Shown: positions 514-2,052 of the stretch, one piece after another
Numbering within the stretch: position 1 is the stretch's first letter
How the letters are laid out: each line of letters begins with the position of its first letter
Position numbers and translations under genes: made by a program
The notes under the pieces: model-generated
Databases searched by the model: none
The model's input: only the letters and a program-made list of their open reading frames with translations
What the model was told of the DNA's origin: nothing
DNA from: Thermomonospora catenispora
GTDB taxonomy: Bacteria > Actinomycetota > Actinomycetes > Streptosporangiales > Streptosporangiaceae
Assembly: GCF_006363815.1 (NCBI RefSeq)
Contig: NZ_RRYT01000039.1
Coordinates: forward strand, 1-38,096
DNA length: 38,096 nucleotides
Direction: 5' to 3'

Positions 514-825
514 TCAGCCGGCCGCCAGCCGCAGCAGCGCGGCGGTGCCCGCGGCGGCCGCCAGCGCCACCAGGAACGGGGCGCGCAGCAGCAGCGCGAC
601 CACCGCCGCGCCGAGCCCGGCCAGCCGGGGCGCGTCCAGCTCCAGCGCCCGGCCGTCGGCGAAGGTCTGCACCGCCACCAGCGCGGTCAGCAGCGCCACG
701 GGGACCAGCTCGGTGAAACGGCGCACCCGCGGATCGGCCAGCACCCGCTGGGGGACGATCAGCCCGGAGAGCTTCAGCGCATAACAGCCCAGCCCGGTGG
801 CCAGCACGGCGATCCAGACGGCCAT
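514..825 (-). CDS. azlD: AzlD family branched-chain amino acid exporter subunit
   Basis: This 103-residue, strongly hydrophobic protein has about three to four membrane segments (near residues 3-20, 40-57, 70-85 and 86-101). It matches the AzlD family in size, in the early YALKLSG stretch and in the RRFTELVPVALLTALV segment. AzlD is the small partner of AzlC in LIV-E type export of branched-chain amino acids and analogues such as azaleucine. The ATG at 825 begins only two bases after the azlC stop (828-830), so translation is probably coupled. It is the last gene of the minus-strand azl operon. Substrate specificity cannot be read from sequence. Confidence 0.85.
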   Translation of the reverse strand: MAVWIAVLATGLGCYALKLSGLIVPQRVLADPRVRRFTELVPVALLTALVAVQTFADGRALELDAPRLAGLGAAVVALLLRAPFLVALAAAAGTAALLRLAAG

Positions 826-827
826 CG

Positions 828-1568
828 TCAGTCCCCCTCCCGTTCCGCGGCGGGCCCGGTCTCGGCCGTCCCCGCGGCGCCGACCATCCCCGCCAGGGCC
901 GCCACCGCCGCCAGCATCACCGGCACCCCGGGCGGCAGCAGCGGGGTGGCGGCGACCGCGATCGCCATCGCCGCGAGCGCCACGCGCGCCTCGGCGCGCC
1001 CGGCGGTCAGCCTCGGCCACAGCAGTGCCAGGAACGCCGCCGGCCCCAGCACGTCCATCCCGAACGCCTTCGGGTCGCCGATGCGGGCCGCGCCCAGCGC
1101 GCCGCCGAGGGTGCTGAGGTTCCAGACCGCGTACAGGCTGATCGCGGTGGCCCAGAACCCGGCGCGCGCCGACCTGGGGTCGGGCTGCGCGGTCGCCACC
1201 GCCGTCGTCTCGTCGATCACCATGTGCGCGGTGAGCAGCCGACGACGCCCGCGCGCCCCCAGCAGCCCGGCCAGCCGCAGCCCGTACAGCCCGTTGCGGG
1301 CGCCCAGCAGCACCGCGCCGAGGGTGCCGGCGACCAGGTTGCCGCCGCCTCCGAGCACCCCGGCCAGTGCGAACTGCGACGCCCCGGTGAAGGCCAGCAG
1401 GCTGAGCGCGCACGCCTGCGCCGTCGACATCCCCGCGGTGACCGCCGCCGCGCCGAAGGCCAGCCCGGACAGGCCCACCGAGATCCCCACGCCCAGCCCG
1501 TCGCGGATCGCCGAGCGTCTCGCGGCGGGGTCGTGCCCGGCGTGCTCGGCGGCGTCCACGGCGGTCAT
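828..1568 (-). CDS. azlC: AzlC family branched-chain amino acid exporter, large subunit
   Basis: The product is a 246-residue polytopic membrane protein. It has the AzlC hallmarks: an early GLSGLAFGAAAVTAGMS segment, TGASQFALAGVLGGGG, GARNGLYGLRLA and HMVIDETTAVA. AzlC with AzlD exports branched-chain amino acids across the inner membrane. I place the start at the ATG at 1568 because it overlaps the upstream gene's stop as ATGA (1565-1568) and gives a normal family length. The frame stays open for 40 codons further upstream, but that part is basic, low in complexity and lies within the preceding gene. The gene is co-transcribed with azlD and a 92-codon ORF behind the leader described at 1844-2052. 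Confidence 0.9.
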   Translation of the reverse strand: MTAVDAAEHAGHDPAARRSAIRDGLGVGISVGLSGLAFGAAAVTAGMSTAQACALSLLAFTGASQFALAGVLGGGGNLVAGTLGAVLLGARNGLYGLRLAGLLGARGRRRLLTAHMVIDETTAVATAQPDPRSARAGFWATAISLYAVWNLSTLGGALGAARIGDPKAFGMDVLGPAAFLALLWPRLTAGRAEARVALAAMAIAVAATPLLPPGVPVMLAAVAALAGMVGAAGTAETGPAAEREGD

Positions 1569-1890: not shown

Positions 1891-1930
1891 GAAAAAGCAA
1901 AGAGCAGAGGCCCCGGCGGGGAACTCTGCT
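1891..1930 (-). terminator. Terminator-like hairpin in the azl operon leader (candidate attenuator)
   Basis: On the minus strand the 7-bp arms AGCAGAG (1924-1930) and CTCTGCT (1903-1909) enclose an inner CCCC/GGGG pairing with a 3-base loop. They are followed at once by the T-rich tract CTTTGCTTTTTC (1891-1902). This is the form of an intrinsic terminator. It lies about 48 bases upstream of the first structural gene's start and downstream of a 20-codon reading frame, so it would act as a conditional terminator inside the leader. An alternative view is that it simply ends transcripts from the toxin/antitoxin pair further upstream. Confidence 0.6.
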
Positions 1931-1935
1931 CGGTC

Positions 1936-1983
1936 GGCTCCGGGATCGTCGCTCAGGAGAGGTCGACCGGCCCGCCCGGAGCC
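1936..1983 (-). promoter_or_regulatory. Long-range stem in the azl leader
   Basis: On the minus strand GGCTCCGGG (1975-1983) lies inside the 20-codon leader frame. It is perfectly complementary to CCCGGAGCC (1936-1944) just after that frame, a 9-bp stem around a 30-base loop. The overlapping 6-bp pairing CGGTCG/CGACCG is an alternative. The bases CTCTCCT at the end of the leader frame could also pair, with one mismatch, with the 5' arm of the terminator at 1924-1930. Such mutually exclusive pairings are typical of ribosome-controlled attenuators; the pairing scheme itself is my inference. Confidence 0.4.
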
Positions 1984-2015
1984 GGCCCGCCGAACCCGAT
2001 GCGGCGTCGATCCAC
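1953..2015 (-). CDS. Candidate 20-aa leader peptide of the azl operon
   Basis: A GTG at 2015 opens a 20-codon frame reading MDRRRIGFGGPAPGGPVDLS and ending in TGA at 1953. Codons 3-5 are three arginines in a row (CGA CGC CGC); the rest is rich in Gly and Pro. There is no ribosome binding site. Instead the hexamer TAGGCT ends seven bases before the GTG, so the transcript would begin at or next to the start codon. The frame ends inside the loop of the leader stem and before the terminator hairpin at 1891-1930. I infer a regulatory leader peptide; translation is not demonstrated. Confidence 0.45.
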   Translation of the reverse strand: MDRRRIGFGGPAPGGPVDLS

Positions 2016-2022
2016 GGGCCCC

Positions 2023-2052
2023 AGCCTAGGCGTCTTCCCAAGTGTCCGCCAA
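2023..2052 (-). promoter_or_regulatory. Predicted azl operon promoter
   Basis: Reading the minus strand, a -35-like TTGGCG (2047-2052) and a -10 TAGGCT (2023-2028) are separated by 18 bases. The expected transcription start coincides with the GTG at 2015. The same TAGGCT hexamer sits six bases before the starts of the Lon-domain gene (9346) and the trpM-position ORF (31130), which supports its use as a -10 element in this genome. Confidence 0.5.

Follow-up and report, generated by a model that had tools for sequence, protein, structure and literature searches.

Which signal does the leader upstream of an azlC-azlD exporter operon in Thermomonospora catenispora respond to, and which gene does it control? 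In the window, by which we mean the whole stretch of 38,096 nucleotides that was analysed, the initial annotation had described an attenuator on the minus strand, with promoter boxes, a GTG frame, a 9-bp stem and a terminator with a T-rich tail, and we located all of these. It had also taken arginine as the signal and azlC as the first gene under control. However, relatives conserve a phenylalanine codon at a constant spacing from the stem, and a degenerate 92-codon chorismate mutase (CM) gene stands between the leader and azlC. The earlier reading is half right: the leader is of the attenuator type, but the signal it points to is phenylalanine and the gene behind it is that of CM. With a probability of roughly four in five, we propose an attenuator of the aromatic amino acid pathway that works through a leaderless leader peptide and stands before a CM gene.

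Organisation of the leader locus

The features of the locus are collected in Table 1. Within the predicted leader peptide of the window, codons 3–5 are CGA CGC CGC (Arg), and one Phe codon, TTC at 1994–1992, is left at the spacing from the stem that is described below. The 9-bp stem (GGCTCCGGG/CCCGGAGCC) turned out to be part of a 12-position stem formed by arms A and C, with one C.A mismatch in the window. The terminator-like hairpin (1931–1902) has a dG of −19.0 kcal/mol and is followed by the tail TTTGCTTTTT. A simple sigma-70 scan returned no promoter in the window leader, and the whole window gave no match to Rfam families at gathering score.

Table 1. Coordinates of the leader and the genes behind it in the window.
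Feature	Position	Strand	Remarks
−35-like TTGGCG	2047..2052	−	from sequence; weakly conserved
−10 box TAGGCT	2023..2028	−	18 nt spacer from TTGGCG; 7 nt upstream of GTG
Leader peptide VDRRRIGFGGPAPGGPVDLS, predicted leaderless	1953..2015	−	20-codon frame, GTG 2015–2013, TGA at 1953
Stem arm A (GCCGGCTCCGGG)	1975..1986	−	starts 8 nt after first base of Phe codon
Arm B (GGGCCGGT)	1966..1973	−	alternative partner of A, replacing C
Arm C' (CGAC)	1951–1948	−	can pair with GTCG 1967–1964
Arm C (CCCGGAGCCGAC)	1944–1933	−	pairs with A; C' and C together 1933..1951
Intrinsic-terminator-like hairpin and T-rich tail	1892..1931	−	1931–1919 with 1914–1902; tail 1901–1892
AroQ-type chorismate mutase remnant, 92 aa	1565..1843	−	45-nt in-frame deletion
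azlC	828..1568	−	PF03591, E 2.5e-27; overlaps CM stop codon by 4 nt
azlD	514..825	−	ATG 825–823; PF05437, E 5.2e-15 (for 514–828)

Taken by itself the fold of the window leader is not striking. Over 131 nt its z score was −0.90, and 36 of 200 shuffled sequences folded equally well or better; over 180 nt the z score was −2.55 and none of 200 shuffles equalled it, a moderate value. Since the 131-nt fold is unremarkable, the case was made by comparison with relatives, and it is conservation there that sets the leader above chance.

Upstream of the leader promoter lies an inverted repeat (2109–2168; 83% opposite-strand self-match), which may be a terminator shielding the leader. It is placed between the promoter and a two-gene unit on the minus strand (2325–2630 and 2627–2869) whose layout resembles that of a toxin-antitoxin pair. 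One of its genes encodes a ribbon-helix-helix/HicB-like protein (Pfam match below the cut-off) and the other a 101-aa protein with no Pfam hit; tblastn found neither protein in the 80 named CM loci.

Conservation of the promoter, the frame and the phenylalanine codon

Relatives of the 92-aa protein were present in 37 of the 100 genomes searched, its own genome included. Thirty loci were fetched, the window's among them, and in 27 a short frame was found behind a −10-like box upstream of the gene; of the remaining three, L022 is cut by a contig end and L029 and L038 yielded no leader. The rule by which leaders were sought required the −10 box, a selection bias in this set. A covariance model built from the 27 leaders, R1, matched 77 of 80 named CM loci, always on the strand of the gene. 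It missed L155, L165 and L187, the first and last of which have fewer than 180 bases of upstream DNA.

Across the 77 relatives, a TAnnnT motif ending 5–7 nt upstream of the start codon was present in every case, against none of 1540 random positions, a count that is not fully independent, because the first 27 leaders were chosen with the −10 rule, and that is partly built in, because R1 spans this stretch. A −35-like T[TG]G[AG]C motif 17–19 nt further upstream was found in 23 of the 77, and a Shine-Dalgarno-like motif upstream of the start codon in none. The spacing from the −10 box and the overall layout point to a leaderless start of the leader peptide.

When the loci are aligned, the frame, the stems and the terminator are kept, whereas the Arg codons at the stem, on which the initial annotation had rested its choice of signal, are not conserved. 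The consensus of the genus, the window excepted, is V-D-R-R-Y/H-F-G-F-x-x-P-A-P. Its other four members read DRRYFGF (three) or DRRHFGF (one) where the window reads DRRRIGF, so that the third Arg and the Ile of the window occupy the site of Tyr-Phe or His-Phe in its congeners. The last Phe of this motif is present in 27 of 27 leaders, encoded by TTT in 25 and by TTC in the window and one other (L015). From the first base of this codon to the first base of arm A the distance is 8 nt in all 27, whereas the distance from the start codon varies, the Phe being codon 7, 8 or 10.

The same holds in the larger set. The codon 8 nt upstream of arm A was TTT in 69 of the 77 CM loci, TTC in 4 and another codon in 4, which places Phe there in 73. 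Among the exceptions, L156 and L166 still encode FAF, an altered arm pattern having misled the automatic position call, and L147 and L200 are without the Phe. TTT is a rare codon by the usage of the downstream genes, where it accounts for 7 of 141 Phe codons. Counting back from the conserved Phe in the 77 relatives, Phe occurs 47 times at −2 and Tyr 36 times at −3, while Arg is found at −4 in 54 cases, at −5 in 40 and at −3 in 10, so that Arg at −3 is tolerated elsewhere. Adjacent aromatic codons are thus common in the relatives; in the window they are lost to Arg-Ile. We suggest that the conserved leader probably senses the supply of phenylalanine.

RNA structure and covariation

We scored A:C, B:C' and the terminator as one structure over the 27 leaders. 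In 90.6% of cells the positions were paired, compared with 83.1% in shuffles, and 18 of 29 pairs had changed on both sides, compared with 9.0 in shuffles; none of 500 shuffles reached either value. Sliding the partner by 1–3 columns lowered pairing to 37–50%, a comparison in which the structure is favoured over its slid versions because it was drawn from one of the leader sequences. Taken separately, A:C was paired in 97.3% of cells, with 5 of 11 pairs changed on both sides, and B:C' in 79.0%, with 2 of 6. In the terminator helix (D:E), 11 of 12 pairs had changed on both sides. Arm C also paired better on average with the A of its own leader than with that of other genomes, with none of 2000 permutations as good. 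The alternative helix A:B, which excludes A:C, was paired in 96.3% of cells; as only 1 of its 8 pairs had changed on both sides, covariation is of little help here.

The helices A:B and A:C are mutually exclusive, and neither touches the arm of the terminator. We therefore looked for an antiterminator in three ways. When everything from the 5' end into the start of arm A was masked, to imitate a stalled ribosome, the minimum-energy structures of the 27 leaders still contained the terminator, as judged by eye. Folding of truncated transcripts revealed no arm that sequesters the 5' side of the terminator (mean pairing 0.22–0.62, local pairs included). Finally, mutual information over 64 non-redundant leaders, taken from 76 full-length rows, gave no further helix; isolated outlier pairs were seen, for example columns 54–193 and 56–192. 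Attenuation by a leader peptide, as originally put forward, thus gains from a frame, a stem and a terminator that are conserved with compensatory changes, but lacks the antiterminator of the classical scheme. Since none was found, we claim an attenuator-like mode of working rather than classical membership.

Distribution of the leader and the genes behind it

R1 matched 210 of 297 genomes in a sample of the family and 48 of 246 in a sample of the class, 31 of the latter lying outside the family; both sets are samples from larger groups. Carriers include Thermomonospora echinospora, Actinomadura, Nonomuraea, Streptosporangium, Microbispora and Planobispora. The window leader scored 92.6, compared with 112.3–119.4 for its four congeners. 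Of the loci hit by R1, 94 were classified, a number that includes repeats of the same place, and 91 of them, L074 having joined the other 90 after an orientation check, precede a CM gene, a fusion of CM with a DAHP-synthase-like domain, or a type I DAHP synthase gene. The other three are a locus ended by its contig (L106) and two weak matches with no aromatic-pathway gene behind them (L092 and L093).

Type I DAHP synthase genes follow the leader in 31 of the 94 classified loci, also in other families, and the matches before them are weaker. These leaders carry Trp, Tyr and Phe codons, as in SRWYWRF, RRYPYF, SYWRF and RWYWRF. The automatic arm finder placed a UUU at 8 nt in 15 of 30 of them, two of the 15 being one locus reached twice; for the remainder it settled on another stem, frame or distance, or found no frame. 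The 8-nt spacing of UUU is a trend in this group and not a rule.

Three further observations concern subsets of these leaders. Five DAHP synthase leaders of family f6, perhaps mycobacteria-like (L121–L125; SYWRFI, YWRFIEAPG), have a further helix next to A:C that joins the Phe codon itself to sequence downstream in the frame (GCGCTTTATCG with CGATAAAGCGC in L125; the others include G-T pairs). In family f21, 13 of 19 matching genomes have two leaders, and in the two genomes for which both leaders were read (G443 and G356; L104 with L127, L115 with L128) one stands before CM and one before a type I DAHP synthase, an arrangement that suggests a small aromatic regulon. Four DAHP synthase leaders (L084, L086, L088 and L089) retain arms A and C together with a second A-like arm further downstream, while the T-tract appears by eye to be lost, a hint that they may be controlled otherwise than by intrinsic termination.

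The chorismate mutase gene, its decay and azlCD

All four of the full-length relatives that were scanned contain CM_2 (PF01817), and the best PDB match was to the intracellular chorismate mutase 5mpv (E 7.8e-5). The genes behind the leader belong with the AroQ chorismate mutases of the Rv0948c type and with DAHP synthase/CM fusions; in the relatives CM stands by itself or is joined to a DAHP-synthase-like domain. L030 was the one fusion scanned; there the DAHP_synth_1 profile matched over no more than 92–177 of 270, and the domain may be a non-catalytic relative. By length, L017, L019, L021, L027 and L033 are fusions too; in these proteins, L030 included, CM follows a shortened domain.

The window copy differs from these enzymes. 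It lacks the segment LAVLLxRRxELAGxV, a deletion of 15 core residues, and further conserved positions have changed, for example Lys to Glu and Asp to Ala. Going by the E. coli enzyme, the catalytic Arg and Lys belong to the region affected. No Pfam family was matched by the 92-aa protein at E values up to 1. A search of the window's genome for CM_2 found none, whereas each of seven comparison genomes has one or two. The genome does contain a CM_1-type mutase, a prephenate dehydratase and a type II DAHP synthase, so that the pathway may work without the 92-codon gene. The deletion may be an assembly error, but neighbouring conserved positions are changed as well, and with the CM_1-type mutase encoded at another place the loss of the gene could be tolerated.

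The leader of the window shows wear of its own, with Tyr-Phe replaced by Arg-Ile, TTT by TTC, and a mismatch in A:C. From these sequences, sensor and enzyme appear to decay together. This raises the question of whether the window leader is a relic, conserved elsewhere and no longer regulatory here. The deleted CM core, the lost Tyr-Phe, the change from UUU to UUC, the stem mismatch and the lower R1 score all fit this account, but the promoter, frame, stems, terminator and azlCD are in place and one Phe codon is kept at the exact spacing. We regard loss of function in the window as possible, at somewhat worse than even odds; it is compatible with an aromatic-pathway attenuator in the relatives, and the odds of the two overlap.

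In 24 of the 80 named loci, azlC follows directly behind CM on the same strand (23 in Actinomadura, one in T. echinospora), and the same order occurs in the other Thermomonospora genomes. Co-expression of a branched-chain amino acid exporter with a biosynthetic gene under phenylalanine shortage would be odd.

Proposed mechanism and alternatives

Comparison of the sequences gives the peptide frame, the Phe codon and its spacing, the stems, the terminator and the gene behind them. The rest of the scheme, from leaderless initiation to stalling and the direction of control, is an inference that can be fitted to this layout as follows. A 70S ribosome would start at the 5' end of the transcript and translate about 20 codons, in which a rare codon for Phe, UUU in most of the relatives, lies exactly 8 nt upstream of a long GC stem. 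If charged Phe-tRNA were scarce, the ribosome would stall at this codon and its front edge would enter the first bases of arm A, a reach that we infer from the usual ribosome footprint. If charged Phe-tRNA were plentiful, the ribosome would go on to the stop codon, which lies in the loop of the A:C hairpin. The choice between A:B on the one hand and A:C with B:C' on the other would then set the frequency of termination before the CM gene, presumably with more read-through when phenylalanine is short. The worn copy in the window would today mainly set read-through into azlCD. Against the proposal stand the terminator that still folds under masking and the sequestering arm that was looked for and not found, and also that the window leader has one Phe codon only and that its fold alone is not exceptional.

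The proposal can be widened to an actinobacterial aromatic switch without a conventional antiterminator, in which a ribosome stalled at a single rare UUU, 8 nt upstream of a stem, picks one of two mutually exclusive stems beside the terminator, and which in Actinomadura and Thermomonospora also drives azlCD. In this wider form we consider it doubtful.

A different view of the same RNA gives weight to a third arm, X, a copy of A in the interval from the terminator to the start of the gene, which would compete with A for C and control translation or RNA stability. C:X is strong in some leaders (L019, z −3.9; L031, z −3.0; L032, z −2.8), and all three arms are retained in a few DAHP synthase leaders whose T-tract seems by eye to be absent. 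Over the 27 leaders, however, the energy of the own pair was barely better than after permutation (mean z −1.1, with 97 of 2000 permutations as good), and X is absent in the window (z +0.7), so that we think general control through X rather unlikely.

It could also be that the nascent peptide itself arrests the ribosome, rather than its codons reporting the charging of tRNA. The F-x-x-P-A-P core is indeed conserved, but PAP is accounted for by the RNA of arm A, and several relatives go on to read arm A in another frame (PAPGSRS, PAPEGRS). The preference for TTT over TTC, moreover, is a matter of the codon and not of the residue. An arrest peptide is very unlikely on this evidence.

Arg codons are common in GC-rich genomes, and the path from Tyr (TAT) through His (CAT) to Arg (CGT/CGC) takes few single-base steps. 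That the leader is an arginine-sensing attenuator of azlCD is hardly credible, for although the window has its Arg triplet and Arg is frequent at −4 and −5 in the relatives, the congeners read RRYF (three) or RRHF (one), other genera often have Thr, Cys or His at these positions, the downstream genes are those of the aromatic pathway, and the comparison with the congeners together with the decay of CM makes the triplet best read as wear of the sensor.

Relation to known leaders

The closest known case to the proposed phenylalanine-responsive attenuator is AroR of Corynebacterium glutamicum. In the accessible text of two reports it is a leader with Phe-Tyr-Phe upstream of the DAHP synthase gene aroF, whose transcription rises on phenylalanine limitation while tyrosine availability has no effect (PMC4046766, PMC11802643). 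Both are actinobacterial leader peptides with aromatic codons and an aromatic-pathway gene behind them. They differ in that AroR controls a DAHP synthase whereas the window leader precedes a CM remnant, and in that the leaders described here conserve a single UUU, placed 8 nt from the stem; the likeness is drawn by description. Neshat et al. are said to have found AroR leaderless in 2014. Among the top-ranked results of our literature search, AroR was, besides trp, the only actinobacterial aromatic case, and a leader of CM or of azlC was not found described there, subscription journals being mostly uncovered.

With the trpL/pheL-type attenuators of Enterobacteria, and of the trp operons of Streptomyces and Corynebacterium, the leader shares codons of the pathway's amino acid, a stem that overlaps the frame, and a terminator. 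Unlike them, it has no antiterminator that we could find, no run of codons in the window, and a predicted leaderless start. Starts of this kind have parallels, since leuL, trpL and ilvL of Streptomyces lividans encode leader peptides that begin at or near the transcript start, and the eight leaders listed in the accessible part of that report include Trp but none of the Phe or Tyr type (PMC8079986). For ilvBNC of C. glutamicum, the accessible text describes an attenuator without a 5' leader in a three-hairpin model (PMC11857589); the ilvB1 attenuator of Mycobacterium tuberculosis, as far as its description is accessible, is a parallel. In the accessible part of their survey, Seliverstov et al. 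(2005) state that the Phe and Tyr operons of the actinobacteria under study are not preceded by any conserved RNA structure (PMC1262725).

Implications

The covariance model describes an aromatic-pathway leader family that spans several actinobacterial families, and it does so where the 2005 survey, in its accessible part, saw none for Phe or Tyr (PMC1262725). Its likely sensor is one rare codon set at an exact spacing from a stem. In T. catenispora the locus offers a case in which leader and enzyme appear to be decaying jointly. In one lineage the leader ties azlCD to the supply of phenylalanine, which makes the substrate of the transporter testable; if the wider form of the proposal were true, the amino acid transported by azlCD would be an aromatic one and not a branched-chain one.
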